DNA from: Zygnema cylindricum
Taxonomy: Eukaryota; Streptophyta; Zygnematophyceae; Zygnematales; Zygnemataceae
Direction of reading: 5' to 3'
Assembly: GCA_037447655.1 (NCBI GenBank)
Contig: JBBHKE010000240.1
Coordinates: forward strand, 1-64,000
Length of the DNA: 64,000 bases
Shown: in pieces, positions 2,201-35,183 of the stretch
Position numbering within the stretch: the stretch's first letter is position 1
How the letters are laid out: the number at the start of each line of letters is the position of its first letter
The notes under the pieces: generated by a model
The model's input: the letters and a program-made list of their open reading frames with translations, nothing else
Told to the model about the DNA's origin: nothing
Database searches by the model: none
Position numbers and translations under genes: made by a program

Positions 2201-2239
2201 GTATCAGCGCTATGCCACGGTATACCCAACTATAAAGCA

Positions 2240-4383: not shown

Positions 4384-4429
4384 GACGTGATGCGGCATGA
4401 CAGCCGAATTCAAAGCCTGAATCGGTACT

Positions 4430-7702: not shown

Positions 7703-9291
7703 TTAACAATTTCCAAACGTATGTTCTCCCATTAAAATGTTGTAGATTTTTTTTTTGAGACTTAGGTCTGCCACATGATTTTGGATACAAAAAGTGTTGC
7801 ACTGCGGTGTGTGCAAACACAAAAACAAGACAAAACAGATAGAAAAACAATAAAAGAAAATGGTATATACCATGGTCACCACATTCCTTGGAAGAATATT
7901 CAAGTACGAAAACATTCGACAAGGAAATTTATGTCAAAACCCCCAATCTTTTCACATTTTAGACATTAGGAATGTATGTCATGCAAGATTATATTTATTG
8001 CTTATGGAGAAATTTCCACCTTATTACGACTTCATTGGATGCGGTTTCGGACCAATTTTGGAGTTAGAAATTATTGGGCCGGCAAGGCACCAAAAGCTAT
8101 TTTTGAGGGACGATTTTGAGTACAACATTTATTGTTTTGCTCTATAATCAAATGTCATATTAAAATGTATGTAGCGTAGCTGATAGAACTTTACTTCACT
8201 TAATTTGGATAATTAAGCAACAAGATATGTTAGGTTAAAGTAGTATTTTGGTGCAATTTTTGGAAACTTTGATGTACAGTAACTTTTCAAAGAATCACTC
8301 AAATACGCTCTGTTTTATATTGGTAGATAGAAAGATTTAATACCTTTTAAATAAGATCTAGTTTGGAGTAATCTAATAGATATTAACAAAGATATGGGAG
8401 TTTCTGTAAACTGCATAATATAGGTCAATTATTGACTTTTTGAAGTAATGATTGTTTTTGCCGATTGGAAATTGGTGCAGGCTGTCCAACCGACGGTTCA
8501 TAATTCAAATGTCCTGACGTTTTCGGTAATTAAACTTAGAATGAGTCCCGTAGTGTCAGTTTTTGATGCCAAGTATTAGTTCTAAGTGTTTGAGGTTGTT
8601 GGAACTCAATAGTGCCTTTGAAATGAAAGCTCAAAACCGTCTCTCAGTTGTCGCCTTCCGAAACCTGAATTCATCAGAAAAGAGCTATTTTGCCAGCCTC
8701 CCTTTTGCCATCTTTAGATCATGTTAGAGTTGCCTTCCAGTTAGTCAATTTGTGTCTTGTTTGGCAACAAGGATACTTGGGGCTTTTTGATTGCAATAGT
8801 CTTTGGGAGGCTAAAGGAGGGAGTTGGATGGATCCCTGATTGGGAGGGATCCGTGGTGTTTCGGGACCTTTGGATTCTGATCACGAGAGTTTTTCGTGGC
8901 CTTAGTTTGCTCCTTTGGGTGGGTCAAAACCCTTATTAAGTTTGCATTCGGGGACGCTTGGATATTCTTGTTTTGTTTTTAATTCTTTGTAATATCTTTA
9001 TGTATTGTGGTGAATGGCTTCTGATAGAGTAGGGTATGAAGCAATATGGTTAAATCTGCAAAGATCAGTGTCATAAATGTTATGGCAGTCTAAATTACTT
9101 CAATTTTGATTTGATTTGTTAATTCCCAAGATTATGGTTATGGTTGACTCAATTTTGTTTAAAGTTGTTAGCATAGCCCATCGAGCTTGATGATATTAAA
9201 GCTCACGGTTAGATAGAACTGAGAGACCGTGCATTGTAGTGTTTTATATGGTGCATTTGTTTCTTTGATTTCTGTTTATTTTTATTTAAAA

Positions 9292-9711
9292 ATGTCAAAA
9301 AATATTATAGATGAATGTTGGAATATAAGGGGAGGTGGGGATGCACCTCGTAGAGACATGTTTGGAACCCCGGAAATGGGTGAAACTAGCTCTTCCTCTC
9401 GGAGGGGCTTGCCAAATTTCTACAGATTTGAGGATGCCATCGGTTCGGGGATGCCATCGGTGCCATCAGTTTCTCATACAGGTGGAGGACCAGACATTCC
9501 AAATTTCCCAAGTCGTTCCCCAATTTCTCCTCTTAAGTCCACTCCTCCTATTGGGATGTCCACTGAAGATTTCCCCATTCTAGCCAAATCTGTTGAGCGA
9601 AGACGAGCTTCTCGGCCATTTCCACCAATTAGAAAGGCTTCACATTCTCTTTCTTTTTATTCGGCTGCTTTCTACTCACTCTCCTATAATTGGACCAGCT
9701 ACTCGTGCTAG
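9292..9711 (+). pseudogene. Conserved N-terminal ORF of dispersed repeat, copy I
   Basis: A 139-codon frame from ATG at 9292, rich in Gly, Ser and Pro, with the segments RRDMFGTPEMGETSSS and GMSTEDFPILAKSVE. The homologous frame in copy II (30,396-30,686) keeps the ATG and most residues, so it was once coding. It has no recognised domain. The low-complexity Pro/Ser composition would fit the N-terminus of a retroelement Gag, but that rests on context only. In copy I the frame is lost after 9711; coding-like text continues in other frames to about 9950. Confidence 0.45.
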
Positions 9712-9953
9712 GCAACCTCACCTTAAGTTCCTGATCCCACCACCAGATTTACATTAAACCGTTGTGAGGAACGAGCTTAAGGCTTTGTATGGGAAACAAT
9801 CATGTGATCACAAGGGTCCTAAAGATAGTCATAGAGGAGCTAGGTCGAGAGCAGACGTGTCAAAATCATGGAGGAGACAAAGGAAGGAAAAGCCGAAGAT
9901 GTCTCCTCTCCCACATTTTGATTTTCGTCTGCTAAATCCGTTACTTTGGGGAG

Positions 9954-10961
9954 TGTTGAAATTGCTAGATTTATGAAGTATTTTTTAGGTCTGAATAGGT
10001 TAGTGAAAACAGAAAAAAAAAGCGCAGGCAGTTTGCCTCCACCTCCTCTCTCTATTGCCCATACTTGTTGTAGTCACTGAACGAAAGAGAGGGTGGTGGA
10101 GCCATGGCAGCCTTGGCTCCTTTGCCAGGTCAAAAGAAGTGACATAAGTCAATTTTTACAAAAGGTTGAGTCCGTCAGGACTCGAACCTCCGACCGACAA
10201 AGCGAGGCGTAACTGTCAGCCTTAGCCGGTCTGTTGATGAAGTCCGTTAGAGTACATAGGGTGTGATTAGAATTTAAATATGTTAAAGTTCAATAATCGG
10301 ACTAACTGAATTACGGATAAATAACATAGAAAAAAATTGGATTACTGTGCGAACATAAAATCGCACGAAACAAATTTACCGTACATCAATTTTCAACGGT
10401 TGGCATTCAAAGCCGTTTTGAATCCGAAGGCACGCATCATCGCCGAGATCGCAGAATGGCCGCTTTGGCGGTTTTTCGGCCGTGACATGACTTGGCCCCA
10501 CGTGGCAGGATAACATTGGGAAGTGGGAATCCGTGAGAGCACGAGGGCCAGTCCGGAGGAGACATGCGTCCACTCAATGGCCGAGTCGTACACAAACGTA
10601 CAGAAAGTACACCGGTCACTGTACCTTTGGGTACTTTCCATTTGTTCGATCGATTTGCACATCAGTAGATAGGGGTTGTAAGAGGGGTGTAGGACATAGG
10701 AAATTTAAAAGGTACTTGCCTCTCTCCCAATGAACTTGTATACATATTCGCATCTTTGCCACTTGAGTTTTAATCGCCAGATTAGGCTTTTTCAGTGATT
10801 TCTTTTTCTGCGGACTCAAGGGAGTCCACAATGCACAGGGTTGTAGTCAGATTGCTTGTTTGCCTAGTTGGGTGTTTGTGATCCTAGCTGAAGAAGGCTT
10901 AGTCAAAGAATATCTAAAGGCTTCCTGATTTTTATATTTCAATGGGGAACACAGATTTGCA
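9954..10961 (+). mobile_element. Solo LTR of a Ty1/copia element (copia-1 group)
   Basis: It begins TGTTGAAATT and ends TTGCA. It lies precisely within copy I: copy II has no such insert between 'ctttgggga' and the following 'gttat'. It is flanked by near-identical 5-bp target copies (gggag at 9949-9953, aggag at 10,962-10,966). The first ~90 bp align by eye with the LTR at 31,180-32,352 (TGTTGA-ATTTG, then AGGCAGT-TGCCT). A tRNA-like block lies antisense in its U3 part. Confidence 0.8.
10150..10245 (-). other. tRNA-like block (degenerate) in LTR
   Basis: On the minus strand the block reads ACCGGCTAAGGCTGACAG followed about 35 nt later by a good pol III B box, GGTTCGAGTCC. The T-stem pairs poorly and no 7-bp acceptor stem forms, so it is not a functional tRNA. 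Equivalent blocks sit antisense in the other LTRs of this group. Confidence 0.5.
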
Positions 10962-12054
10962 AGGAGCCGTTATGGAAGACAAAACACGAGAGATCTAACA
11001 GCTAGGAGTCTCATATTAGACCTAGAGGATCCCTCAACATTGATTTTTCCCACATCTTCATCATCTTCTCCTAATTTTGGCAGGGTTTCGTCGAAAGAGG
11101 GGATAATTGCTGATTTTCTCTCACCTACGTGGGGAGGGGGAAATCAAAAGCAAGGAGGGGGTAGTTTCGGAATTAGTCGTAGAAGATAAGTAACCTAAGT
11201 TACCTGTCTAGATTTCAAAGTTACTTGAGGTAGAGGGAAAAATTGGAGCACATGGAGAATCACTTTTAAGGGAAGGAGAGGAAAGGGACCGAGAGGCTGC
11301 ACCAGTGGTTGCACAACAAGATTGGAGTCTTTTCTCCAACAAATCGGCAGGTATTGGAGCTATAGTAGAGGAGGAGTTACGAGTAGGTTGAACAGGGCCG
11401 ACAGATGACATAGTTCCGATTCCATCATTGGTACTTACTCCAACCAACAATCTGGAACTAGACCCCATTCTTTTTCGATACATGTCTGTTTTAGCTCGTG
11501 ATCCAGGAGAAGCAGCTTTGGAAAGGATCCTTGACATTGATATGATTCCAATACCTATTACCTCTCGTTTTGAGCATCTTCTTCGAACCCCTCCTCCTAT
11601 TGATCCACTTTTCCCTCATATTATGCGTTTGGTGGGACACTAGCGATTTGACCTTACCGAGTTATGTCGGCCATCTAGGCTAAATTGAATATTGGGGTAG
11701 AGAGGGGTGTTCCAACAGAGTTAGGAAAGAGTGGGAAGGACAAGGTTGGGATTCGAGAGGTCACGAAAATTAAAAGATAAGTAGGGGAATCGTCCAGGCC
11801 AACAATTGATCCATTGGGGGTTGGGCAATTTCCTAAGAAGAGACCACAAGAGGTTATAGAGACTGATGATACTTTTTCTAGATCTGATGCATAGGTACAA
11901 AAAAGGACGAGGATGAAAGCAACACCCATTTCATCACCAAATCAAACAGACCATCAGAGAGTTAGACTTCGACTAGATCCAAGGATGATTTTCAAGGGAG
12001 ATTCTTAGAAAGTACGAGAAAATTTGGAAATTAGGTTGCAGCAACTCTCACCCA

Positions 12055-12941
12055 TGCAACTCTGAGACCTCCATAGGTCCTCAAAGTAGGCAGCTCACAC
12101 GAAGCCTCTAGGATAACCCTGAACCCTTTGTGTTTCAACAAGAATAATTGTCACCCTGACAAACAAAAACTTTGACCACCTTCACCCTAATGAAGGCAAG
12201 ACTCCTTTGGGTCGTTAGCAAAAAGAATCCCCGAATTTTCTTCCGTGAGCAGTAAGTTATGGCTGGTCGAAAATGACCTTTATATTTACAAGCTCTCCTA
12301 GAGAGAGGTACCTAAATATCACTAAGTCTTAGTCTGCCTACTCACGACTACCTACTACTAAACTCTAGACCAATAGGAACACTTTATAGTACAATAAGGT
12401 ACATTGTGCGATATACTTATTGTACATTTGTTGTACAACATAGTCTACAAGGTAACACCTCTCAAATTGGGAGCCATGGTTCTTCCTCCCATCTTCAGCG
12501 ATGTCAAATAATGCGGCGCCACATGGCACCGCGTGACGCTATCTCCGAATGCCGCCAAAAGCACACTTCGAGTGGCGGCTACAATTGTGGCCGTTCGATC
12601 AAAACATATTTTACACAGTTCAGATTCGCGTACGTGCATGAATTGTTCCTCTTCGTTAGTTTGGTGTTAATTAGCTGTTTTGTCAATGTTTATATATCTT
12701 TCAAATCCGTCACGTGTATCGTTTCGTAGCGCATTAATGGTTAAGGCGCCCGGCTATAGAGAATCCAGATGTCGCAGGTTCAAATCCGTACTTAGACAAC
12801 ATTTTTGTAAAATATTATCTACTTCAAAATCTGCCACTTTCTAAATATTGCGGCAGCCATGACGTGCCTTTGATCCTCACTCCCTCCCTTTAAAGTATAA
12901 CTAAAATAGAGAAGTTAAATATTAATTACCTTTTTTCAACA
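12055..12941 (-). repeat. Copia-1 3' LTR
   Basis: Aligns along its length with 17,327-18,211. Shared blocks include 'gagacctccataggtcctc', 'atggttcttcctcccat' and 'ggcgccac-tggcaccgcgt'. 887 bp, starting TGTTG and ending TTGCA in element sense. Confidence 0.88.
12728..12802 (+). other. tRNA-like block in copia-1 3' LTR
   Basis: The plus strand carries TGGTTAAGGCGCCCGG, close to an A box of an arginine-type tRNA, and 25-30 nt later the B box GGTTCAAATCC. Acceptor ends do not pair, so I call it tRNA-derived or tRNA-like, not a tRNA gene. It lies antisense in the U3 part of the LTR and is repeated at 17,998-18,072. Confidence 0.55.
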
Positions 12942-13128
12942 ATTCATTTTAGACCTAGAAAATACTAAAAGAACCATTAATTTCCACACCCCCTTGTTTT
13001 CTAATCACTCTTTAATTTTAGACCACACTTCTCCCAACAGAAAAATATCTTAGTGGAAGGCACAGGTTTGGTCAACATGTCTGCTACCATTTTGCTATTG
13101 GTCTATACTCTAAACTGATTATTTTGTT

Positions 13129-14633
13129 TTATACCTTCTCTCTAACAAAGCTAAGTCTTATATCCATGTGTTTAGCTTTAAAATGATGTTTAGAATTGGG
13201 AACAACAGCGATTGCTACTTGATTATCACAAAATATTTTATGTACACCACTCTTAAAGTGACCAAGCTCACCAAACAAAGACTTGACCCACATCATTTTT
13301 TTTACAGGAGAGCAAGAGGCCATATACTCAACCTCCATGGTGGACTCAGTAATAACCTTTTGTTGTTCGCTACTCTTGCATTAAGCCCTATCACCAACAT
13401 ACAATACATATCCATAAGTACATCTCCTCATCGGAGCATTACCATAACTAGCATCACTCCAAGTAGTGATGTCAGTATCCCCTCCACCCAAATGAAACCA
13501 TAGATCTCTAGTTCCTATCAAATATCTAAGGACTCTCTTAGCTGCCTCCCAATCTCTCTTAGTGGGAGCATTTAGACTTCTACTCAGCACTCCTACAGTT
13601 GCAGCCAAATCGGGTTGGGTACAATTCATAAAACAGATTAGGCTTCCCACTACTTGCCTGTAAGGAATAGTCTGCATGAACTTCTGTTCTTCAAGACCTA
13701 ATTCCTCGTCTAAGATTATGACTTCTTCTTCCACACTCCCCTCACTTCCTTTCTTCAACTCAATTGGAGTTGTACAACTATTATCCTTATCCATCTGAAA
13801 CATTTCCAATATCTTCCCTATTGTTTCTTTTTGAGTTAGTCTGATAATTTTTCTTCTCGGTCTCTTTCTACTTGAATTCCCAAAATAAATCTTGCCTCCC
13901 CCATATCCTTCATCTCAAATCTCCCCTTAAGATTTGTTTTCAGTTTATTAATTTTGTCTATGATTTACTTAGAACAAGCAAATCATCAACATAAATTGCA
14001 ATAAAAATAACACCTTCGTCATCTTCAAAAACATAGATTGAGTGATTTGAACAGATCTGGATATATCCCTGACCGGTAAGAAACTCATCAAGCTTCTTAT
14101 TACACTGTCAGGCCGCCGATTTCAAACCATAAAGAGATTTAATCAGCAGACATACCTTACTCTCCTCTCCTTGTTCACAAGTCTTTCGGGTTGTCACATA
14201 ACATCTCCCCTTCAAATTCTCAATGCAAAAACAATGTCTTGATGTCCATCTGGTGCACCTCCATGTTTTCCGCTGTTGCCAAACTGAGAAGTATGCGGAC
14301 AAAGGGAAATCTGACGACCGCGGCAAAGGTTTCCTCGTAGTTGATTCCCTCTTTCTGTGTGAATCATTTAGCCACTAACCGGGCCTTGTAGCGCTCTATG
14401 GTGTTATCTGTGTTCAGTTTTAATTTGAACACCCACTTACAACCGATTGATTTCCGATTAGGTGGACAATCCACCAACTCCGAAGTATCGACTGCCATAA
14501 TTGAGGCCATCTCCTCATTGATGGCTGTCTTCCACCGGTTCCTTTCTAGACAATTCATCGCCTCTTCATAAGTCTGAGGTTCATCCGGATAAGATAGCTT
14601 TGTTACCTTGTTGTTAACCTGTTTTTCTTGCAA
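13129..14633 (-). pseudogene. Copia-1 reverse transcriptase and RNase H
   Basis: The RT fingers are at 14,364-14,633 (NRWKTAINEEM then IGCKWVFKLKL). The palm catalytic YVDD is legible at about 13,976-13,995. RNase H is split between 13,381-13,809 (WSDASYGN) and 13,129-13,338 (FCDNQVAIAV, then a KH-DIRLSFVRE motif). These are standard Ty1/copia landmarks. At least three frameshifts and several stops separate the pieces, so no active enzyme is made from this copy. Confidence 0.9.
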
Positions 14634-15900
14634 TCTTTTGCTACTTCTCTTTTCACCCTCAACATCTGTGGCCGGAATAGATGGTTCACGCGTTTTTCTG
14701 AATCTCGGTTTCTCCTGTCCCTCGATTCTGGAACAATTTCCACCACGTCTTCCGCTTCCGGTAGAGTTGTTACTGGAATTTCCACGGCCGAGGCCTTCTC
14801 GGTCTGATTTGTACCTGTAAAAATATCATCTTCTATGAAACCATGATAGTTAGGAAGCTCAAAGTCATCGGAATTTTCTGACTCAAATCGGATTTTTACT
14901 GACTTTGTATACTTGAAAGGATCCACATACTTTCCTTCATCCATAACAACTAGACGCTTTACTTAGATTATATCTTCCCTTTTTAGATCATAAACTCTAT
15001 ATCATTTTACATCCTCATCATATCCTAAAAAATACCCCAGTTTTCCTTTAGGATCTAGCTTCTAATTAGAAAGATCTGTATCTAGACTAAATACTTGACT
15101 GCCGAAAACCTTTAAGTGAGATATATCTCGTTTCCGTCCGGTCTATCTCTCATAAGGTGTTTGGCCTTTTACCGCTGAAGTAAGAACTCTATTTTTGAGG
15201 TAATTAGCATAGTTGATTGCTTTGGCCCAAAACCTTTTTTATATCTTCTGATCCAACAACATTCTTCTAGCATTATCACTTAGTGTTCTATTTAATCTTT
15301 CAGCTACTTGATTTTGTTCCGGGTTTTTTGGAACTGTCTTTTGGTGTTGGACTCCAACTTCCTTCAGAAAATCCTCAAATTGGTTAGAGGTATACTCCCC
15401 ACCATTGTCACTCCTTCCTCTCTTGATTGGGGTTTCATGGAGTTTTTCCCTCCATATTTTATATTGTCTAAAACATTCCTAAGCCTTTGACTTATTTTTC
15501 AAAAAATACACCCTGGAATACCGAGACCAATCATCAGTGATAGTCATCATAAATCTATTCCCCTCGGGTGAATGCACTTTGACCGGTCCCCAAATATCTG
15601 TGTGTACTAAATCTAGAATCGTTTCTCCATGATAGATGGTTGATTTTGGAAAGGGTAACTTGTGTGCTTTGCCTTGAGCATATCCGCTACAATCACTTAG
15701 ATTCTCACTCTCACCAAACTGAATCCCTTCCACTACTCCCATATTTTTCATCTCTCTTTACTTATCAAGATTCACATGCCCAAGCCTCTTATGCCACAAC
15801 ATTATATCATGAATACCAGCATAATAAAGTTTTATCTTTTCATTGCTTTAAATCAGCCTAAACATCCCTTGGCTACCTTTTTCAGCAGTGAAATAAACTT
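14603..15900 (-). pseudogene. Copia-1 integrase and C-terminal linker
   Basis: The integrase core is read in broken frames. The first catalytic Asp is in LVHTDIWGP within 15,479-15,751, the second in SDNGGEY near 15,400, and the Glu in AERLNRTLSD near 15,290. Together they form the D,D-35-E triad of retroviral-type integrases, which joins element cDNA to the host chromosome. The acidic segment 14,603-14,944 is the variable integrase tail before RT. A stop and frame changes interrupt the core. Confidence 0.85.
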
Positions 15901-17370
15901 CCTCCTCAAAACTAGCAGTAAAGACTACTTTCCTAGTGCTAGTATCAAAACCCTTATCATCTAATACAGATGTAGAGATGAGGTTTTTGTTCAGCTACGG
16001 AATGAAAAATTCATCGGAGAATGTTACTATGGATGTTTTTCCTTCTACTAACACTTTCGGATCTATCGATCCGACAAGAGTAGTAGTGACTATCTTTCCA
16101 TCCCCGTACTATACCTCTACGGTGGGAATCTTTCTTATCTTAGTGAACAGGTGTTTATCCTTCCACATGTGCATGGAGGCACATGAATCTACAATCCATC
16201 ACGCTTCACCTTTCAATCCACCAAAAGCACAGTTCTGCTTTCGTGGAATTTCGACCTCGTTTTTCGCCTCAAACTCCTCATCCAAAAGAAGCTCATCGTC
16301 CTTGTCCTCGGATTCCGCCTCGTGTACCTGTGTCACAAAGGCATTTTTCTTTCCTCTCGGGTGTCCACCTGTCTGCCCCTCCTTTAACCGCAACTCTGTT
16401 AACTTAGTGCACTCCGCCATATAGTGCTCTAGTTTCTTACAAAAGTGGCACAAACCCTTGAGAGCCCTTGGTCCGAACTCCTCGGTCTGATTTTTCTGCC
16501 CCCCCTCCATAATTTTCGTCGGGTTTCTTAGAATCATTGTTCCTTCAATCGGTCCCAGCTGCCAAGGCTTGCCCACTCTTTCTTCCCCTTCGGATCTCAA
16601 TCGTATTTTCCCGAATGATAATCATCCCTACCACTGAATTCCATATCCACCTTGAGTCCGGCAAGTCTTGCACACGGTTGACTATGTTCTCGAACTCATC
16701 TGGTAACTTCATAAGCAAGCAATTTACCTTCATCTTTTCAGTTTCAACCTGTCCAACACTCTCTAGCTCCATAAAAAGTGTTGCGAGCTCATTACAAAAG
16801 TCCAACATCTCCCCCCCCCTTTGTATACGTATACGTCAATTTTCTGATCAGCCAACTGCTGTTGCTAAATCGTACCACTTCGGTACATCTCTATGAGAGC
16901 CACCCAAAGATCGGAAGCCCTCTCTACCTGCAAATGAGGAGATGCAAGCCCTTGAGTAAGACGGCGGAGGATGAAGTGCTTTGCCGCCATATTGTTGTAG
17001 TCCCAAGTATCGGTATCATTCTCCTCGTTCCTAAGAATTGGTGACATGAATGCCAAACCGGTTGCTATCGGTGTGATCGTCTATTTCTCCTTTCCTTTGT
17101 CCACCACCTCCCCTTCGTTTTCTCCTCCGTTGGAGATGGATCTGCATCTTTGGTGAATCTGCTTCCACTAAACCTTGGAGGGATCCCAAGACTGACTGGA
17201 CGCCTCACCCGTCTACTCATTATTCCCCAAAACCTTTTCTTACATAAAGCTCTTGTCATCATACTTTCCCAGTATATGAAGCCAGTTCCATTCACTATGC
17301 GTACCTTAGATGGTGGGCCTATAACTTGCAATTGTGAGACCTCCATAGGTCCTCTGAGTAGGCAGCTCAC
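15900..17370 (-). pseudogene. Copia-1 Gag and aspartic protease
   Basis: Gag starts at an ATG ending at 17,370, inside the 5' LTR, and continues in three broken pieces (17,065-17,370, 16,865-17,056, 16,545-16,808). The nucleocapsid zinc knuckle CHFCKKLEHYMAEC (CX2CX4HX4C) is at 16,409-16,450. The protease active site reads VDSCASMHMW near 16,160-16,200, where the family usually has D-S/T-G-A. Gag packages the RNA and the protease matures the polyprotein. Frameshifts and stops make this copy inactive. Confidence 0.8.
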
Positions 17371-18211
17371 ACGAAGCCGCTAGGATAACCCTGAACCCTT
17401 TGTGTTTCAGCAAGAATAATTATCACCCTGAAAGACAAAAACTCTTACCACCTTCTCCCGAATGAAGACAAGACTCCTTTAAATCGTTAGCAAAAAGTAT
17501 CTCTGAATTTGCTCCCTTGAGTAGTGAGTTATGGCTGGTCAAAAATGACATTTATATTTACAAGCTCTCCTAGAGAGAGGTACCTAAATATCACTAAGTC
17601 TTGGTCTGCCTACTCACGACTACCTAGTACTAAACCCTAGACCAATAGGAACATTATAAAGTACAAGAAGGTATAATGGGCGATGTACTTATTGTATGTC
17701 TATTGTACGACATAGTCTACAAGGTAACACCTCTCAAATTGGGAGCCATGGTTCTTCCTCCCATTTTCTTCGGTATCAAATAATGCGGCGCCACGTGGCA
17801 CCGCGTGACGCTATCTCTGGATGTCGCTAAAATCTCACTTCAAGTGATGACTTCAATGGTGGCCGTTCGATCAAAACATTTTTTACACGGTTCAGATTGG
17901 CGTACGTGCTTGAATTGTTCCTTTTCGTTAGTTTGGTGTTAATTTGCCGTTTTGTTTATGTTTATATATCTTTCAAATCCGTCACGTGTATCGTTTTGTA
18001 GCGACTTAATGATTAAAGCGTCGACTATAGAGAATCCAAATGTCGCAGGTTCAAATCCGGACTTAGGCAAATTTTGGTAAAATATCATCTACTTCAAAAT
18101 CTGCCACTTTCTAAATATGGCGGCAGCCATGGCGTGCCTTTGATCCTCACTCTCTCTTTTTAAAGTATAACTAAAATAGAGAAGGGAACTATTAATTACC
18201 TCTTTTCAACA
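17327..18211 (-). repeat. Copia-1 5' LTR
   Basis: 885 bp pair of the LTR at 12,055-12,941. In element sense it starts TGTTGAAAAGAGG and ends TTGCA, directly before the primer site. The Gag ATG (17,370) lies 44 nt inside it. Confidence 0.88.
17998..18072 (+). other. tRNA-like block in copia-1 5' LTR
   Basis: Second copy of the block at 12,728-12,802. The A-box part has drifted (ATGATTAAAGCGTCGAC) while the B box GGTTCAAATCC is unchanged. Confidence 0.5.
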
Positions 18212-19639: not shown

Positions 19640-20995
19640 TTCCACTCCTTCATCACCATCCACCCCTTCTTCACCTTCTTCTCCAGAATCCTCGTCATTG
19701 GATCCTGATTCTTATAGTCATTCGGAGCCGCCCGATCCTCCTTCACCGACGAGGAGTGTGCAGTCTTTGGTGAACCCTATTTCTCTTATATTTAATACTA
19801 CTACTTCGGAAAACAGAGGATTTCTATTTCCTTTTGAGGACGGTTTGGATGGGGGGTAACTCGAGGTTTTTTTACTGAGGATGCATCGGGCATTTGTTTT
19901 TCTTTGTTTAAACTCCAATGGGAGTCTTTTTATGCTGCTGAAGTTAACAAGCACCGAGGAGGTGTTTTTCCGGCCAACTTAGAGCGGATGTTATTGCCGA
20001 TGATGGTTGATCGATTGGCAGAAGGGGCTTTGTCAGATTCTATGAATAGGAAGACCGGCTTGACTGCTCTAACTATCAAGATTTCAGATCCGACTTTGGA
20101 CCAGGCCCATGTTTCTGCGATGGCTGATCTCGAGGCAACCATCTGTCACCCTATTTCAACCACGTACACGTTTGATGATAAGTTACATGATGAGACATTA
20201 GCTTACTCTTAGATGAAGAGATTAGAGTATGCCGCTATTGGTGCTACGAGGATGGAGGCGAATTCCCAACCTTGTACCACATTACTAGGTATATGGGAGA
20301 CTCAGTATACAGAGAGAAATGAGGCTTCCATGAGAGAGTTTCATGAATTTAAAGGGAAGCCTGATGAAACTCCTCTCACTATGTACAATCGCCTTGCTAA
20401 CCTTTGTGTTCAAACTCATCAAGATATTAAAAATCCGTTGATAATTGCTAAGTTTGAACACGCGTTGTCGAAATCCCTTGACCTGAAAACGACCCGAAAT
20501 TTAGAAAATTGGACAGCTCAAAAAGCTCTCAATGGCCTTTCTATCACTGCTTTCGATCTTGCCACCGTTGCTCGGAAATACCATGACCACTTTGCCGATC
20601 GGGAAGCTCAAAAGAGGACCATGACAACGAAAGTTAGTAAAGAGGAATTATTTTCTAGATCGAACACTCTTTTTGTCACCAATATTGAATTGAATGCTGC
20701 CATATCAAGAGCAATGAAAGGGAAGGGACTGGCAGAGCCGAATCCGCACGCTCATGGAGCGGATAAACAGATCTTATTCTCATGTAACAATTGTGGAGAG
20801 GTTGGACATGGTTGGCAAAAATGTCTGAGACCTTTATCAGTTGAGTTAGCAGCAAAGAAGGCAAAGATTGACGCCGAACAAGATGCTCGGAATGTGGCAC
20901 GTGGAGTTGGTGATCAGAGGGAGTTGAAAGATGGTGGAGGTAAGCACAACGAGAAAAGAGGTGACACATCATATGCACAGCAGGTGGAATTTTAG
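19640..20995 (+). pseudogene. Ty3 element Gag (capsid-nucleocapsid)
   Basis: The frame from 19,904 runs to 20,995 with one in-frame TAG at 20,210. The middle (about 20,300-20,600) resembles the helical capsid of retrotransposon Gag (MREFHEFKGKPDETPLTMYN, then LANLCVQTHQDIKNPLI). A zinc knuckle CNNCGEVGHGWQKC (CX2CX4HX4C) is at 20,783-20,824. Before 19,904 a Ser/Pro/Asp-rich tract is legible in another frame, so the true start is upstream and lost by frameshift. Gag forms the particle and binds genomic RNA. The polymer of CCHC and capsid just before protease fits a Gag-Pol precursor. Confidence 0.8.
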
Positions 20996-22010
20996 AGAAT
21001 TTGTCGAATTAGGCTTCCTCGGTTGGACCATCGGAACATTCGTGATGATTTGCGGGCAAAGTTCTCTATTATTAACACGACATGCGAGGCATGTGGACAT
21101 CAAAGCCATATGGCGGCTCAATTTTTTCAAAAACACGGGATTACAAAAGAATTTTTTAAATATGTGAAGACTAATCCTGCTACCGGAAAGCATTTATGAG
21201 TATTTCCACTTTTTGTGAGATTTATCTCTCTCGTGGGACATTTCAACCCGAAGGGGAGAGGAACGAACGCGATCCGGTTTGGGGGGCACAATTCAGAAAT
21301 CCAACACCTCTTGAGACGAAATTACAGAAAGAGTTGTTGGATGTCAAAATCAAACTTGATTCATTGATGAGAGAGAACGCAAGCAAGGGTGTTTTTTCTT
21401 CAAAGTCAGCCAAAAAATTAGAGAAAGAGGCACGATTGACTTACCTAACTCACCAAATGTCAACTTTATAGACGGAAGATTCACATTCAAAGGAGGATCC
21501 GGAAGGATGGGAGATTTCAAACCACTCTCGGATGAGTGGATTGTTTGTAGGTGATCCGATTTTGTTTAAAGTTGGCATAAGAGAGAGTAGGATACAATTA
21601 CAAAAAAATACTGAAGATCAAAGGAAAGACAAGCTACCACAAAGGACCAGTGATCATGGAGGAAAAGGCAATCCGACATTACCCTTTTGCCCTTTTACCC
21701 TTTTGCAAGTTTTTTTGAAGACGAAAGTTGGTTTAGGGGTTAAAGCCGATTCTCCACCACCATCACCACCAAAGGTAACCAATTCTAATGATGGAACCTC
21801 TGATTCCTTCTCACCAGAGACTACTGAAGACAAATCGGACGACTCTTCCACTCCTCTCACCACTAAGGTGGATTCTCATCCTACTTCGACATCGGATCCG
21901 CCCATCACACCTTCTCAACCTTCCGCCATGTTAGTGGATCTTCTCATCCCACACTCTATAGAGTTAGTTCGTACATTGGCTAACTCTCACCAAATTTTGG
22001 ATAAATAACT
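20996..22010 (+). pseudogene. Ty3 element spacer region between Gag and protease
   Basis: Frame 21,196-22,008 is open except for one TAG at 21,469. A segment just before it, in another frame, contains CEACGHQSH and FFQKHGITKEFF, a possible second small zinc-binding site. The part 21,290-21,470 is Lys/Glu-rich and could form a coiled coil (KLQKELLDVKIKLDSL). The part 21,740-21,930 is Ser/Thr/Pro-rich and probably disordered. No family is recognised; position suggests a Gag-Pol linker. Confidence 0.5.
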
Positions 22011-22044: not shown

Positions 22045-22706
22045 GTGACATCCACAGATGCTTTTGGAGCACCCATTTCATCTTCTGATTCCAATTTTGG
22101 TGGCTCGGCGAAGGTGCTAATTGCCGATAGGGATTACTCTTCTTTAGCTATTGCATATATTGGATACTCTATTGGACACTTTAAAATTAATGGTTTCGGT
22201 GGTTTCCTCCAAAACGTGGTTGATTCTACGGCCTTTCCTAACTTTATCTCTACTAGTGCTTTAGAGAAATTGCCACCCAATTGTACCCAAAAGTATTTTC
22301 CAGTAACGTGTGCCTAAGCACGGTTAGTAATGGTAATCAACCAGTGTTTGGTATGGTGAAGGGTATGGAAATCGAATTTGGGAATGATGCAGGTTAAAAG
22401 ATTACTATTCGGCTCCCCTTTCTTGTGGTAGAGGGCAATCAGTTTGAAGTTTTATTGGGGACCCATACGTGGTCACGGTTGGGAGCCATGGTAGATTTTT
22501 TGAGTGAGCAAATCTCCATTCCGGATTTGTCCACTTCGCTTGCTCGTCGTGTTTTTGTCACTCTCACCTTGTGGGGACGTCACCATTCACAAGAAGCAGC
22601 AGCAGGCTGCTACTCCGTCTATATTAGCAATGCTCCCTCCATTCATTCTTTTAAATTTTCCGTGGAATCAGAGAATGCATCCACCGACATTGCACCCCTT
22701 ATATAG
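22045..22706 (+). pseudogene. Ty3 element aspartic protease
   Basis: The segment NVVDSTAFPNFIS (about 22,215) has a catalytic-Asp setting (V-D-S/T-x-A) like retropepsins. After a frameshift near 22,320, the stretch VEGNQFEVLLGTHTWSRLGA (about 22,424-22,483) matches the second half of the fold, where family members read (I/V)LG-D-L. Such proteases cleave the Gag-Pol precursor. It sits between Gag and the methyltransferase in the expected place. Family assignment is moderate because the flap is unclear. Confidence 0.6.
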
Positions 22707-22829: not shown

Positions 22830-24559
22830 GACATTTGGTTGAGGGCCAGATCCTCGAGAGGTGGTTGATTTGACACCGAAGCTGGCAGGGTTAACGTTAA
22901 TCTCATTATTTTTTGGCACCAGTACGGATTTAGAAGCTATACTAATGAACGACCACCAGATTAGAAGTTATTGAGCCGTGGAAATTTCATCTTCAGCTCG
23001 GACTGCGAGTGAATGTCGAGTATTAGAGCTTCATCGATTTTACCCAATTACCTGTTTCTTCCATTTCACAATCTCATCATCGTCTCCCACAAAATGTTGA
23101 CTTGATTTCTTCACAAGAAAACCGAGATTTGGGAGGGGTAGATTTAGTGATAGCTGGTTGGCCTTGTTGAGGTATTCTCATGTAGGGAATGGAAGGGGAA
23201 ATAGTGACATTCAGAATCGTTTATTCTATCAGATGGTTTTTATCCTCAACCTTTTGCAACCACATCAGCATAAGACGTTGGGATACTTGCTGGAAAATGT
23301 TGTTCTGACACAACTACTGGCACTGAAGATGAAGAAGATGCAGCAGTAGTCATCGTAGAACAAAACAAGAGAGGAAGCTTCCACAAATACCGATGGCTGA
23401 ACAGCAACTTTGACAGACTATAACTTTCAGAAATACGCTCTAAACTTCCTGAAAATTTACCACAATGTAGCTAACATATAAAGGAACACACACACAAAAT
23501 TTCAATTAATTCCGCTCACAAATCTGTGAGATATGTAGAAATGATATTACATAAAACTGAGTGTACAGTTTTCATATCATTTGTTCCTAAAAATCAAATT
23601 CTCTAAGTCCTACTTTTATACACCGAAACTACACTAAGATGTACGGAGGCATTCCAGCCGTACATCTAACATTCTATCACAAATATTTACACCGAAGTTC
23701 AGACAACGTAAAGTGACAATGATCTAGTCACGCCTCGTCACTATTTGTTGGCGGCGGCTGTCAGCGGTCCGATTAGAGGATTTGGCACCGTAGAATTGAC
23801 TTTACGAAGTCCAGTGGTCCTGCCGAATTTCCGTACGTCCACGGAGGACATACTCACGCATTCTCCCAAGTGACGACACGTGTCCCAAGTGTGAATGAAC
23901 CGTGAACTCCCAACTTCACTGTCACACTAATTTCGGTAAGTACTGAACCGAACTCAACCAAAAATAGCTTAAGTCCTGAACAGCTCTCTCTCACAGCTGA
24001 GGCATAAAGAGGACTAAAGCTTTCTAAAAACAACAGAAAATTCCTTCCCTGGTGCGGATCAACGTAGTAGGGTAGTTACTGTTTGGCAAGAGACAAGTCA
24101 ATATTTGGGGGAGCTTTTAGTGTTTGATGCAGCTCACATGGGGTCTCGTGCTTTTCGTCTTCGCTCATATTGGACCAATCTTGCTCCTCTTTCAGTATTA
24201 AAAGTCGCCGTGGGATTACAAAAGCGTCCGCCAAATCTCATCGTCGATCAGATTTTGGAGAAAGGTCGTACAACTATTCTTGTCACGTCTACATCTCAAC
24301 AACTATTTTTTGACTGCAACAAATCTGGTCAACCGAGAGGCGCACTCCCCACTCTTGTTTCGTTTCCCCGGAGCCATACATATTGCCTAGGTTCCCCTGG
24401 CATGATCTTTGACACCAATACAAAAAAATGGGATGTGCCCAATACCAATGAACGAGAACTAGCCATGGGTTTTCGCACGAATACTAAAGCGGCCCCTAAT
24501 CTCTCCCTTGAAACCCGTTGCCGTTTGATTGGTTAAGCTATGGATTTACACGCGTTACG
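22830..24559 (+). pseudogene. Retrotransposon-borne cytosine-5 DNA methyltransferase, copy 1 (interrupted)
   Basis: C5-methyltransferase motifs occur in the canonical order. Motif I LTLISLFFGTSTDL (22,891-22,932) would bind S-adenosylmethionine. Motif II is AVEIS (about 22,980), motif IV VDLVIAGWPC with the catalytic Cys at 23,165-23,167, and motif VI LGYLLEN at 23,278-23,298. After the solo LTR come motif VIII GSRAFRLRSYWTNL (24,141-24,182), a target-recognition region, motif IX (GALPTLVSFPRSH, ERELAMGF) and motif X (LIG-AMDLHALR, to 24,559). The family methylates cytosine in DNA. Breaks: TGA after PC, TGG-to-TGA near motif II, a CAG-to-TAG and a CAA-to-TAA change, the inserted LTR, and deletion of the C-terminal tail at the RT junction. 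It lies between protease and RT, so it was part of the Pol polyprotein. Confidence 0.85.
23298..24035 (-). mobile_element. Solo copia LTR inserted in methyltransferase motif VI
   Basis: 738 bp with perfect TGTTGTT...AACAACA ends and a perfect 5-bp target duplication GAAAA (23,293-23,297 and 24,036-24,040). In element sense it starts TGTTGTTTTTAGAAAGC. Near its 3' end it carries an ATG (23,353) opening a Gag-like start (MTTAASSSSS). The right part resembles the LTRs of copia A and D. The homologous methyltransferase copy at 43.8 kb lacks the insert. Confidence 0.95.
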
Positions 24560-25575
24560 AGGGATTCAATGTGCTTGTTTTTATATTGACGACGTGATCA
24601 TTTTTTTAACAATTTGGAGGATCACCTCGTTCATTTACAAATGGTGATTAATGCTCTAAGAGCGGCAGGCTGAAAGTGTCATCTAGGTAAGGATATATTC
24701 GGGGTAGATAAAATTTTGTATTTGGGACATGAGGTTACCCCTAGGACTGTAGGTCCACATATGGTCAAAGTCGCCGCCTTAGATGTGTTGCCAGCTCCCA
24801 CAGATGTTGCTTCACTTCGCACATTTTTGGGGTTAGCTAACTATTATAGACAATTTGTTCCAAAGTTTAGCAGCCGAGCTCAAGCCCTCAATTTACTTTT
24901 AAGGAAAGATCAAGAGTGGCAATGGAAGGAAGAGCAAGAAGAGGCATTCCAATTATTGAAGAATGCGCTTCAAGAAAGTCTGGTTGTTCGTATGCCGGAC
25001 CATTTTCAACCATTTATTTTTTACACTGATTGGAATAGATTAGGATTACAGGCCGTATTAGCTCAGCTTGATGATTTGGGAGACGAATACTTGGTAGCCT
25101 ATGCGAGTCGGAGCAACAACAAGACGGAGGCCTTTTACAGTAGCTATCATGGGGAGTTTCTTGGAGCTGTTTAGGCCATCCAACACTTTTGACCATATCT
25201 TTATGGCGTTCGTTTCACCCTCATCACCGATCTCCAACCTTTGAAATGGATACGGAGAATAGTAAGCTTACAGGGAAACTTGCTCGATGGGCTTTGATAT
25301 TGCAAGAGTATGATTTTGAGATAATTCACCGAGCCGGTGAGGCCCATGGTAATGCAAATGGTCTTAGCAAAAACCCCGATCCATCTACTGTTGATGCAAC
25401 AGGAGCAAGGTACGATGAGGATTCGATTTTGGGGGTTGGAATGGTCATGGCAGCCACAATATTTTTTTTGCTTCCTAGAAAAGAGAGGAACAAGGTACGA
25501 TGAGGATTCGATTTTGGGGGTTGGAATGGTCATGGCAGCCACAACATTTTTTTTGCTTCCTTGAAAAGAGAGGGA
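24560..25575 (+). pseudogene. Ty3 element RT (C-terminal part) and RNase H
   Basis: Coding resumes at the RT catalytic motif (FYIDDVIIF, YIDD at 24,582-24,593), fused directly to methyltransferase motif X, so the RT fingers and most of the palm are deleted. The connection reads YLGHEV and FLGLANYYRQFVPKFS, typical of Ty3 elements. RNase H follows (FIFYTDWNRLGLQAVLAQ, then AYASRSNN and LITDLQPLKW). An 85-bp tandem duplication at 25,406-25,575 shifts the frame after RNase H. RT and RNase H convert element RNA to DNA; this copy cannot. Confidence 0.88.
25406..25575 (+). repeat. 85-bp tandem duplication in Pol
   Basis: Copies 25,406-25,490 and 25,491-25,575 begin CAAGGTACGATGAGGATTCG and are nearly identical. 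Because 85 is not a multiple of three, it shifts the Pol frame. Confidence 0.92.
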
Positions 25576-26450
25576 ACTTTTTGCATTAGGGGAAGAGGTG
25601 GAAGGGCAAGCTCCATTATCAGCTGTCAGGGTTGACATTTTTGATGATTTAGACACCTTGAAATCCCTAGAGCAAAGGGTCAATTTTACCACATTTAGAG
25701 GGGATCCAGAAAGCTAGAGTTATGCAGAGGATGTCTGCTTACACTTGGGATAGGGGGGTTCTTTTAAGGGTTTGGCCGGATGGCGTCAGGGAGGTAGTTC
25801 CACCACCTGGTGATCGAGAAACCTTAGTTAATAACCTCCATGAGCAATGTGGTCATTTTGGTGAGAAGCGTATCGCTTCTTTGGTTACAGCATCTTATTG
25901 GTTGCATGGAATTCGAGCACAAGTGAACCGAGTTGTTTAAGCATGCCTAACCTGCGATTAAGTAAAATCGGCATTTGACAAGAAAGGTGGTACCGAATTG
26001 CTTTCTCTTCGCAATCGGGGAATGTTTTACTGTTGGTCATTAGACTTGCTAGGGCCTCTTCCGACCAGTCGTCAAGGAAACCGCTTTGTGCTTGTGATGA
26101 TTAAGCATTTTCTAAGTGGATTGAGCTCATTGTGTTACCTCGGAAAAAGTCAAATTCCGTAGCCGACGCCTTTTTACAAAGAGTCCTGGTTCAGCTTGGC
26201 GCCCCAGCGGAAGTTTTAACTGATCAGGGTTCTGAATTTGCTGGGGATTTTTCGACTTTGATAGAGCAATGCTTGATTGATCACCAACTTAGGAGTAGAG
26301 ATCATCCTCAAGCTGATGGGTTAGCTGAACGTTGTGTCCAAACAGTCAGGAGAGCACTCCGAAAATATGCCCTCGAGGAGGATGTGGGGGATTGGGATCA
26401 GGGGTGCCTTTGATTGCTATGGGCTACAAGTTTAGTAAACATGCTTCTCT
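25576..26450 (+). pseudogene. Ty3 element integrase
   Basis: The N-terminal zinc-binding region is visible as HEQCGHFGEKR then CLTC (about 25,840-25,960), an HHCC site broken by a stop. The core has LDLLGPLPTSRQGNRFV (first Asp, about 26,040), LTDQGSEFAGDF (second Asp, about 26,220) and ADGLAERCVQTVRR (Glu, about 26,320). This is the D,D-35-E triad of DNA-joining enzymes. Stops at 25,938 and near 26,100 and a frameshift before 26,132 break it. Confidence 0.88.
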
Positions 26451-26755
26451 TCACAATCAAAGTCTTTATTTTTATTTTTATGTTGTTTGGCAAGCATCCT
26501 ATTTTTCCAAGATCTGCCTCTGCCCAAGCCACTGTCTTACCCGAGATGGATAGTAAAAGGGATAGTGGTGAGGCTTATTACTGCTCGAGCACAGGTTTTT
26601 CATCGAGAGATTCCGATAGCCATGGGCAATATGCAAGCGGCCCAAAACAGAGATCAACTTTGGTATTCCTACCGTAGGAGTGGCTGTTATGTTCCTCGAA
26701 AATGACGTTTTCAGTCGGGGATTTTGTTTATCGGATGCGGTAACAAAAAGATACA

Positions 26756-27106
26756 TTGGATATTTCTGCAAGCCTGATTATTTTGAAGGTGGTTGAGGTT
26801 TCCCCTAAAGGAGTGTTAACTTTGGAAGGGGCTGACGACAAGAGAGTCAACGATAATCAAATTAATGTGGCTCCTTGCCACCTTCGAAGGCTCGAGGACG
26901 AGCCAACATTACATTTCAATTATTTTCCCTCTCATCCCATTTGTTTCAATTCTCCTTTGTATGCCTCTGGTTACGAAACTAAAACCATTTTATTATGTGA
27001 AGCATGCAATAGAGCTTGGCATTTTTCTTGCTTAACTACGGATTGGGCAGGTCGGGACCAACTTGGCCGACCTTGGTTTTGTGGGGAGTGTGAAATGGGG
27101 GTTTGA
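26756..27106 (+). pseudogene. Ty3 element C-terminal segment with PHD-like zinc finger
   Basis: After an SH3-like integrase tail (KVVEVSPKGVLTLEG), the C-terminus carries LLCEACNRAWHFSCL and, 16 residues on, PWFCGEC. This gives C-x2-C-x4-H-x2-C followed by W-x-C-x2-C, the second half of a PHD finger. Upstream ICFN offers only one of the first two Cys, so one ligand appears lost or displaced. PHD fingers read histone H3 tails; in Ty3 elements a C-terminal chromatin reader (chromodomain or PHD) can guide integration. The frame stops at 27,104-27,106, just before the polypurine tract. No methionine opens it; it is the tail of Pol. Confidence 0.7.
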
Positions 27107-27156: not shown

Positions 27157-27469
27157 GAATAATTCAGGAGTGAATACGACTGTCCCCACATTGGGACGGG
27201 GTGGGTAACTTTTCTCTCTTTTTATTGTTTTTATCATCTATATGTCCGCACTAATGTTGTCAAGATAATCATTGTATTTCGACGTATGGAATTCTCCAAG
27301 CGGAGTGATATTGGTCGCCAAATTTATATATTATTCTTCTTGCATGAAGCATCACAGCCATGGCTCGACAGCTGTCATGCATGATTATATTTATTGCCTA
27401 TGGAGGAATTTCCACCTTATTACGACTGCATTGGATGCGGTTTCGGTCCAATTTTAAGGTAATTGGGCC

Positions 27470-29190
27470 AGATAAAATAAAGAGCACGATGGTAAACCAT
27501 ATGAGTCCGGGGTACAAAAGGGGTGGCATGGCCAAAACCGAAAAACTAACATCAGGGATAGGAACACAAAAACAAAAAGAAAACAACAACAACGAAAATA
27601 AAAGCACCCAAACTGAAAGTGAAAAGCACGGCAACTGGAAAAACCCAAATCTACAACCCCAATCCCAACTTAATTAAATAATCTACGAAAAGAAACCCCG
27701 TAAGTCCCCCCAACCCGGGGGAGCACGTTGAGGGAATTCCGGAACACGGCGACGATCGATAACTGCAACAGCCGATCGGAGGAGAATAGAAGCCTGCATT
27801 TGTTTTAAAGCCACAGATATGCGTTGACGATAAAAAGAAGTAAGAACCGAAGGAGGTGGGCTCCCAGGTCCTCGGCGCTCGAAAGCACGTCGAGCGCAAG
27901 TATGGAGAAAATCGTCTATTGCAACACCCAGACAACCAAAGATCTCGACCGCTATCGGAATAAAGTCATCCATAGGGTCCCGGTGGGCATAATCACGCTC
28001 TTTCGCCCTAGCGGCATCACGAGCGGCCACCCCAACATGTCAAGCCGCCTGACCAACAACTGTCGCTGAAGTAGGGTTTGCTAAGACAATATCACCGAAG
28101 ATACCACTGGCACCATCGAGTAAAACAATATCGATCCGACGCGAGGGAATAATAGTAGAAACCTCCCAACGCACAGAAAAGCTCCCCTCTGAAGCGATAG
28201 TCGCAACGGCGTCGCGGATACTGTCGTGCGCCTGGATCAAATCTCCCCCATGGGAGCAACGAAGCAAATGGACACCATCGGGCCCCAAGACACGACCACA
28301 AACACAAACAAGAGAGTCATGTAAAAGAGGATTAGGGAGGCCAAGGCGAAACAAGAGGGCGGTGGTGAACTGAGCAGAGGACAATCGGAGAGGAGACAAA
28401 ATAGGTGTAGCGAAAAGCCAAGACCCAGAACTATGTCCACCACAAGAGAGAAGACGGGCACGTGAAGAATCAGAGGGAAGTGTCTTGAGAAACTCGGATT
28501 TAATGGCGGCGACAACCCGATCTGAAATTGATTCGTAGACAAGCTCAACGGATTATGTAACAACGGTGGAGAAAATCGGCACATCCATTAGGGCATGGGG
28601 AGGAAGAGAACGTGACACGTCCAATAGAGACCGCTGGAAGGCGAACACACTGTCTAAAACCCGGGGGACAACGGTAGCTAGAACGGGGGTGTCCCCAGCT
28701 AAGAATCGGGAAACAAGAGTATAGGCAATAAGGCACCAACTTCCCAAATATGCAGTTAGAGCAACACGAGCAGTCGATAATAGACCCAACCCCCTAGTAG
28801 TGACAGGGGGGGGATGCCTGAATGTGGACTGAGGGCCCAGACTCGTTATCGAAAGCCCCACGACCTAACAGAGTGTGGAGGACGTCCATGAGGCGATTGT
28901 CAAAGGCCAAGAGAGAGGAGACAAACGTCGAGGTGGGAGGGGAAGTACGAGTAAGGTAAGAAGGACGGTGGGGAAAACACCTAGTTAACATAGCAAAAAC
29001 CACTTGGGGATTGGGAAAGTGAGGAAGGTCGTCCATTTAGGCTAGATCTGTTTATAAAGCATCGTGAATGAATTGAGTCACAAAAGTATCCGAACCAAAG
29101 GGGCAACCAAGCACACGAATGCCATCGGAGGGAGAAGGGGTTTGAAAACCAGGAGGGGGAGTAAAGGAAAGTGAAATATCCTGAGAGTTA
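27470..29190 (-). mobile_element. 5'-truncated LINE-like retroelement with zinc-finger RT C-terminus
   Basis: Minus-strand fragments in order: GIRVLGCPFGSDTFV (about 29,090-29,135), PHFPNPQVVFAMLTRCF, a segment with CVCGRVLGPDGVHLLRC and HDSIRDAVATIA (28,186-28,300), then DDFIPIAVEIFGC and SFYRQRISVALK (27,800-27,960). These match the thumb and Cys-His C-terminus of a non-LTR reverse transcriptase type common in plants. The palm and everything upstream are missing, as in typical 5' truncation. Compared with copy I it interrupts 'gagttagaaattattgggcc'; diverged versions of that target flank both ends (about 27,455-27,471 and 29,186-29,205), a plausible target duplication. Several stops and frameshifts are present. 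Confidence 0.75.
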
Positions 29191-30395
29191 GTTATTATCG
29201 GACCGGCAAGGCACCAAAAGTTATTTTTGAGGGACGATTTTGAGTACACCATTTATTTTTTTTCTCTGTAATCGAACGCCATATTAAAATCTATGTAGCG
29301 TAGCTGATAGAACTTTACTTCGCTTAATTTGGATAATTAAGCTACAAGATATGTTAGGTCAAAGTAGTCTTTTGGTGCAATTTTTTGAAACTTTGATGTA
29401 CAGTAACTTTTCAAATAATCATTCAAATACGCTGTATTTTATACTTGTAGATAGAAAGTTTTAATACCTTTTCAATAAGATTTAGTTTGCAGTAATCAGA
29501 AATATATTTAGAGAGATATGCCAGTTTCTGTAAACTGCATAATATAGGTCAATTATTGACTTTTTGAAGTAATGCTTGTTTTTGCCGATTGGAAATTAGT
29601 GCAGGCTTTCCAACCGACGATTCATAATTCAAATGTCCTGACGTTTTCGGTAATTAAACTTAGAATGAGTCCCGTTGTGTCAGTTTTTGATTCCAAGTAT
29701 TAGTTCTAAGTGTTTTAGGTTGTTGGATCTCAATATTGCCTTGGAAATGAAGGCTCAAAACTGTCTCTCAGTTCTGTCGCCTTCCGAAACCTGAATTCAT
29801 CAGAAAAGAGCTATTTTGCCAGCCTCCCTTTTGCCATCTTTAGATCATGTTGGAGTTGCCTTTCAGTTAGTCAATTTATGTCTTGTTTGGCAAAAAGGAT
29901 ACTTGGGGCTTTCTGATTGCAATAGTCCTTGGGAGACTAAAGGAGGGAGTTGGATGGATCCCTGATTAGGAGGGATCCGTGGGGTTTCAGGACCTTTACG
30001 GGATTTTTCCGTGGCCTCAGTTTGCTCTTCTGGGTGTGTCAAGTTTTCTTTCGGGGACGCTTGGATGCTACTTGTTTTGTTTTTAATTCTTTGTAATATG
30101 TTTATGCATTGTGGTGGCTGGCTTTTGATAGAGTAGGGTAGGAGGCAATATGGTTAAATCTGTAGAGATCACTATCACAAATGTTATGGCAGTCTAAATT
30201 ATTTCCATTTTGATTTGATTTGTTAATTCCCAAGATTAGGGTTATGGTTGACTCTCTTTTGTTTAAAATTGTTAGCATAGCCCACCGAGGTTGATGATAT
30301 TAAAGATCGCAGTTAGACACAACTGAGAGACCTTGCGTTGTTGTGTTTTATAAAGTGCACTTTTGTCTTTGATTTCAGTTTATTTTTATTTAAAT

Positions 30396-30686
30396 ATGTC
30401 AAAAAAAATTATAGATGGATGTTGGAATAGAAAGGGAGGTGGGAGGGCACCTCTTAGAGACATGTTTGGAACCACGGAAATGGGTGAAACTAGCTCTTCC
30501 TTCGAGAGGGCTGGCCAAATTTCTGCATATTCAAGGATGCCATCGGTGCCAACGATTTCTCCAACAGGTGGAGGACAAGATATTCCAAAACTCCCAAGTC
30601 CTTTCTTGATTTCTCCTCTTCCGTCCAATCCTCCTATTGGGATGTCAACTGAAGATTTCCGCACTCTAGCCGAATCTGTCGAGTGA
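30396..30686 (+). pseudogene. Conserved N-terminal ORF of dispersed repeat, copy II
   Basis: ATG at 30,396 opens a frame matching the ORF at 9292 (MSKKIID, RDMFGTTEMGETSSS, GMSTEDFRTLAESVE). It stops at 30,684 where copy I reads through with CGA (TGA here). A 48-bp tandem duplication (30,678-30,773) follows. Coding-like text continues to about 31,100. No domain recognised. Confidence 0.45.
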
Positions 30687-30773
30687 AGAAGAGCTTCTCG
30701 GCCATTTCCACCGATTAGGAGAGCTGTCGAGTGAAGAAGAGCTTCTCGGCCATTTCCACCGATTAGGAGAGCT
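30678..30773 (+). repeat. 48-bp tandem duplication
   Basis: Copies 30,678-30,725 and 30,726-30,773 begin GTCGAGTGAAGAAGAGC and are identical or nearly so. Absent from copy I. Confidence 0.92.
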
Positions 30774-31179
30774 TCACATTCTTATTTTTCTTAATCGGCT
30801 GCTTCCACTCACTCTCCTATAACCGGACTAGCTACTCGTGCTAGACAACCTCACCTTAAGTTCCCGACTCCACCAACATATTTACATGAAACCGTTGGGA
30901 GGAACGAGCTTAAGGCTTTGTATGGGCAACAATCACGTGATCACAAGGGTCCTAAAGATAGTAATAGAGGAGCTAGGTCGAGAGCAGCAGTGTCAAGATC
31001 ATAGAGGAGCTAGGGGAACGATAAGCCGTAGATGTCTCTTCTACCAGATTTTGATTTTTTGTCTGCCCAATACGTTACTTTGGGGAGCGGTTATCTAAGA
31101 CAAAACCCAAAAGATCTAATTGCTAGGAGGCCTATATTGGACCTAGGGGATCCCTCAACATTGAATTTTTCCACATCTT

Positions 31180-35098: not shown

Positions 35099-35183
35099 CT
35101 CCCCTAAAGCTTTAGTCTTAGTTACTCAATTAGACCAATAACATTTCTGCAAAACTATAATTTAGGTGCAGGAAGAGCTTTAG

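Follow-up and report, generated by a model that had tools for sequence, protein, structure and literature searches.

A dead Ty3 retrotransposon of Zygnema cylindricum with a predicted DNMT3-type DNA methyltransferase in Pol and a PHD finger at the integrase end

The first 64,000 nucleotides of contig JBBHKE010000240.1 from the alga Zygnema cylindricum (the whole stretch analysed, hereafter the window) contain a dead copy of a Ty3 long terminal repeat (LTR) retrotransposon, with a cytosine-5 (C5) DNA methyltransferase in gag-pol between protease and reverse transcriptase (RT). Gag, protease, methyltransferase, RNase H, integrase and a PHD finger were all located on the plus strand by Pfam searches and by tblastn of proteins from related elements (P numbers below). 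Gag (20252..21166) was recognized with P0003 (26% identity, E 2e-11) and has one zinc knuckle and a second without its last Cys; a Pfam search of this region gave no match. The aspartic protease (22126..22574), found with P0003 in two frames, is decayed (DSTA for DTGA), and Pfam was also without a match at 22398-22703. The methyltransferase, copy 1, follows at 22861..24560 and is interrupted and frameshifted. Its end is fused in frame to the YIDD of RT (24582) at a deletion junction (24549..24605), where residues 673-691 of P0002 follow directly on 169-343 in a single reading frame; nothing corresponds to residues 344-672, so that RT is only a remnant. The remaining RT part with RNase H (24602..25675; P0002 691-1019, 47%; PF17919 1.5e-18) is followed by a frameshifted integrase (25674..26740; P0002 1019-1164 and 1164 on; PF00665 6.6e-8), which ends in a PHD finger (26744..27106; PF00628 1.2e-6). 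Apart from the truncated RT this is the Ty3/gypsy order, protease-RT-RNase H-integrase, with an integrase of retroviral type. The element is not a chromovirus by its domains, the integrase C-terminus having PF00628 and no chromodomain match either in the window piece or in the second open reading frame (ORF) of the related contig L015.

The outer direct repeats, both on the plus strand and both interrupted, are probable LTRs. The upstream one (7977..11058, made of 7977-9953 and 10963-11058) contains an insertion, and its pieces are 84-94% identical to parts of the downstream one (27373..31179, made of 27373-27455 and 29185-31179), which is split by about 1.7 kb. Within this split, minus-strand ORFs at 28040-28864 resembled the end of a non-LTR element to us; the one at 28043-28552 had no Pfam match. 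Another element, with direct repeats of 887 bp at 12055-12941 and 17327-18211 (89.5% identical), sits inside the 5' portion of the methyltransferase element (12055..18211). Searches for tRNA and against Rfam gave no match.

A first-pass annotation, made from the letters alone, had described the C5 methyltransferase motifs in order between protease and RT of one plus-strand Ty3 element. The motifs were recovered with P0001, P0002 and P0003 over 22861-23301 and 24036-24560, with the catalytic Cys codon at 23165, motif VIII at 24156 and motif X at 24450; place and strand hold, except that the RT named there is the remnant described above. The two parts are separated by a solo LTR (23298..24035, 738 bp, TGTTGTT...AACAACA) flanked by a 5-bp GAAAA duplication, for which copy 2 of the domain has an empty site at 43783. 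The 3' end of this solo LTR is similar to stretches 34977-35098 and 45290-45335. Copy 2 (43330..44422, plus strand; tblastn and repeat comparison) is a domain alone, with no gag, RT or integrase match of the relatives beside it. Its 43346-44422 part aligns to P0001 residues 32-390 with 47% identity (E 1e-98), and the DNA of the two copies is 85-89% identical in the two longest blocks. Copy 1 has stops at 22972 (TGA) and 24534 (TAA), plus a 5-nt gap relative to copy 2; copy 2 has TGA at 43448, 43502, 43538 and 43571, TAG at 43778, and further stops at 43631 and 43646 in a short shifted stretch. The profile check that had been proposed for both copies succeeded for one of them: copy 2, its three pieces joined with X wherever a stop or a change of frame occurs, reached PF00145 at E 1e-4 with 22.3 bits against a gathering threshold of 22.0, a score that may be low since part of the middle piece was read in a wrong frame. 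The three pieces taken singly had no PF00145 match at E <= 1, and the 172-aa ORF of copy 1 no Pfam match at E <= 0.1. The PF00145 match within the window is thus marginal, and the case for a methyltransferase rests on the relatives.

Compared with the WPCQG of the relatives, both copies appear to share a 1-nt deletion just after the Cys codon. A programmed frameshift at this point was considered and rejected: the copies have the deletion in common, but the stop behind it occurs in copy 1 only, which makes simple decay or descent from one already broken ancestor the likelier cause. The two copies of the window cannot methylate DNA of the family.

Relatives were collected in two ways. A search with the copy 2 protein gave 19 (P0001-P0019), and a profile built from eight domains found 78 in the 8000 candidates scored: 64 (P0020-P0083) at 7e-29 or better, the doubtful P0084 (9e-13, covering 19% of the query) and 13 weaker matches (3e-12 to 9e-4). 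We counted 84 relatives, P0084 included and the 13 weaker matches left out. They include proteins of the liverworts Marchantia polymorpha (P0004, P0013, P0015) and Calypogeia fissa (P0006). In 19 of the 84 the same protein also has a precomputed Pfam retroelement domain (9 of 19 from the copy 2 search, 10 of 65 from the profile search); many others are short contig pieces, so that the linkage is demonstrated for a portion of them. Neither of the two refuting outcomes named in the first-pass annotation, absence of PF00145 or a host fragment without gag/RT in any other copy, came true. The most complete case is L015, a 9285-bp contig with identical 127-nt ends and the full set of domains. Its first ORF (8609 to the end, and 3-3491) encodes gag, protease and methyltransferase, gag being assigned by order and likeness and the protease scoring 20.5 bits, under the 24.3 cut-off; its second (3504-6635) encodes RT, RNase H, integrase and PHD finger. 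The two ORFs share one frame and are separated by a single UAG followed by CAAUCA. CARYYA after UAG is the leaky context of tobamoviruses; the match here concerns one sequence only. Neither LTR nor primer site was found in L015. Both L015 and P0021, plant-type retroelement sequences, are filed under bacterial bins (Synechococcales and Obscuribacterales; the cyanobacterial one is L015); they are probably misbinned, and L015 was taken as eukaryotic DNA. Fourteen contigs of the viral_contigs collection match the A1 query, each over just a portion of the domain, one in which motif IV lies, and a viral origin was rejected; the 172-aa ORF of copy 1 had no match among the viral contigs.

The enzyme is predicted to be of DNMT3 type. 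DNMT3 was nearest by sequence, in a profile search of solved structures, and by fold, in a VIA-align ranking with 50 entries listed, where the structure prediction that had been called for was made on P0024, a protein of the window's branch. On both counts DRM, DNMT2 and bacterial methyltransferases are more distant from it than DNMT3 is; DNMT1, CMT and MET1 structures are absent from both rankings and are not thereby excluded, DNMT1 not having been compared. The motif order in the window and its relatives runs unrearranged from I to X, which points to DNMT3 rather than DRM. In eight of eight aligned domains the Cys with the following Gln, EN and RxR are kept, and NCBIfam assigned all eight to the dcm superfamily only, the score of the first member (the sole one shown) lying below the cut-off. 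PF00145 was matched at 39-50 bits in P0002, P0003, P0010 and P0016, and at 45.9 in L015. Motif IV reads GW(P/E)C in 69 of the 84 relatives, 48 with P and 21 with E; GWEC is unusual for C5 methyltransferases. Four of the 15 others cover at least 93% of the query: P0050 (CGWPC), P0037 (GWDC), P0049, in which no such motif was found, and P0013, discussed below.

The place inside Pol had been called unusual. It is the usual one in the window's branch. Protease and RT flank the methyltransferase in the window, P0003, P0013, P0014, P0016 and L015; in P0001, P0002, P0067 and P0073 the methyltransferase precedes RT (the RT start in P0013 and P0014 being our own reading of the sequence). Elsewhere it lies after RNase H or before integrase (P0017, P0019, P0033, P0036, P0037, P0047, P0050, P0051, and P0018, which shows both). 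Since P0014 falls in the same large tree group as P0017 and P0018 despite its other arrangement, the place of the methyltransferase has moved at least once. For the PHD finger, PF00628 was reached in four of the five elements whose integrase is complete to its end (window, P0018, P0019, L015), and the fifth, P0002, has a similar row of Cys and His in the alignment and no Pfam match. A literature search for PHD fingers in integrases showed nothing plainly on point in the titles and abstract openings of the papers listed.

A careful tree was built from 54 rows, 51 of transposable element (TE) type and three outgroup rows; P0013, P0015 and rows spanning fewer than 260 profile positions were left out. 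The TE-type rows split from the outgroup at 100/100, with deeper TE forks weaker (82-91 bootstrap). The window groups with P0001 and P0002 (99/95), then with P0003 and P0024 (100/99). In a quick tree DNMT3A sat on a very long branch, its placement flagged as unsure by the program. We also compared pairwise identities of the methyltransferase with those of RT-RNase H in eight elements. Ranks correlate at 0.85 over 24 pairs, a value that 2 of 5000 random permutations of the labels attained; the RT-RNase H pieces are unequal in length, the comparison has no methyltransferase-free Ty3 outgroup, and four of the 28 pairs (P0018 with P0001 and P0003; window with P0001 and P0003) were dropped for an RT overlap of only 16-50 residues. 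Because the two divergences agree, old co-inheritance seems favoured over capture in each lineage, Klebsormidium nitens standing outside this comparison.

The first-pass annotation had placed retrotransposon-borne methyltransferases in charophytes and dinoflagellates, correctly, and called them rare, which they are less than was supposed. De Mendoza et al. (2018; PMC5890265) describe in their text KnitGypsy-Dnmt3 of K. nitens, an acquisition in that lineage with Ka/Ks (ratio of non-synonymous to synonymous substitution rates) under 0.2 among copies; the element is mentioned again in the text of Sarre et al. (2025; PMC12344493). Like the window element it is Gypsy/Ty3, from a streptophyte alga, with an unrearranged Dnmt3-type methyltransferase in the Pol ORF, and the window element adds one more member to the kind. 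Its repeats are DIRS-like according to a figure legend, whereas those of the window look like ordinary LTRs. This comparison is by description, not by sequence; the word PHD is absent from the main text of PMC5890265, figures and supplements being outside the check. According to the same text, SymbioDIRS-Dnmt3 of Symbiodinium also has a Dnmt3 methyltransferase in Pol, with a domain order that varies between subfamilies; it is a DIRS element with a tyrosine recombinase, unlike the window element with its retroviral-type integrase PF00665. The DNMT3 enzymes of animal and plant hosts (for plants the subject of Yaari et al. 2019, PMC6453930) agree in sequence, fold and motif order, the structures compared being those of animal DNMT3 only. 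In contrast, the window methyltransferase is part of a retroelement polyprotein, and relatives of its branch have WPCQ in motif IV. According to a passage of PMC6338049, land plants, such as tracheophytes, have no transposons that encode methylases; for liverworts the proteins of Marchantia and Calypogeia speak against this. Together with the other relatives they suggest that the kind is older and wider than described.

The window also contains other sequences. A copia-type sequence lies on the minus strand at 33884-43108, with a 725-aa open frame at 36507-38684, RVT_2 at 35184-36254 and a second, diverged copy at 39257-43108. A tandem repeat with a 23-bp unit is found at 50065-50248, and pieces of an F-box/LRR host gene, identified by homology on the minus strand, at 51100..56340, outside the element. 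Among the 120 of 468 hits listed for these pieces, one contig matches at 87%, three proteins at 55-62%, Mesotaenium (label Mesen1) at 55% and Closterium at 51-59%, with liverworts behind at 43-45%, so that this single gene indicates a zygnematophyte as the probable host.

We give somewhat better than even chances to the following reading: the window holds a dead Ty3 copy of a family whose working members methylate their own DNA copy and guide their integrase with the PHD finger. In such members the methyltransferase would most likely be packaged into the virus-like particle along with Gag or Gag-Pol. It would methylate cytosines of the element's DNA copy, either ahead of integration or right after it, and the PHD finger would guide the integrase to chromatin. 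The mark could make the new copy resemble host DNA, or put it at once into tolerated chromatin. Self-methylation of the DNA of the family is plausible.

Several observations weigh against this reading. The motif IV frameshift is common to both window copies, so a lineage with a dead methyltransferase may have spread. Ka/Ks between the copies is 0.70 for two ungapped blocks pooled (Ks 0.159, Ka 0.111; 0.44 and 0.88 singly, against 0.47 to 2.27 in other frames of the same blocks), a third block whose frame changes inside (0.41 to 1.32 in its three frames) being kept out of the pool; there is no sign of recent constraint between them. The element shows no special depletion of CpG: observed/expected ratios are 0.59-0.95 in its parts, 0.55 in the F-box gene, 0.45 in the copia region and 0.80 in the window, and 10 of 62 transitions between the copies fall at CpG (45 CpG sites in 895 aligned bases), so that these two measures gave no clear sign of a methylation footprint. 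Among the relatives, P0018 and P0019 have no PF00145 match at 0.01, and Marchantia P0013 has GWPS, with the Cys replaced. Finally, KnitGypsy-Dnmt3 expressed in yeast gave no methylation, a result its authors call inconclusive in the text of PMC5890265.

The enzyme could instead serve self-restraint, methylating and silencing new copies so that the host is harmed less and the family is not lost. This we consider unlikely. Silent transposons such as KnitGypsy-Dnmt3 copies bear CHH and CHG methylation, and slowed retrotransposition is one option named by the authors (text of PMC5890265), but that methylation may come from host enzymes, and our results fit self-methylation for tolerance equally. 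More doubtful still is that the domain works chiefly on RNA or binds nucleic acid as a component of the particle; the methyltransferase of L015 does sit in the gag-protease ORF and 21 of the 69 motifs read GWEC instead of GWPC, yet none of the eight aligned domains departs from Cys, EN and RxR, and sequence and fold are nearest DNMT3, not DNMT2. Chance capture of a host DNMT fragment by this one copy, without a role, which the isolated copy 2 might suggest, is rejected as very improbable, being contradicted by the linkage to protease and/or RT in P0001, P0002, P0003, P0013, P0014, P0016 and L015 and by the tree, where the TE-type methyltransferases form one side.

Returning to the self-methylating family, a bolder version can be put forward only tentatively, and we think it rather less probable than its opposite: a Ty3 lineage would have captured DNMT3 once, long ago, and kept it with the integrase PHD finger through streptophytes including land plants, as an element combining a chromatin reader with a DNA methylation writer. 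One branch would make the methyltransferase at Gag level and RT-integrase only through a leaky UAG, the methylase thus loading each particle. Should the family prove old and co-inherited, methylation carried by retrotransposons would be a lasting trait of several green plant lineages rather than a rare accident in a single alga, and liverworts, Marchantia for example, would become usable hosts for testing the action of the enzyme.
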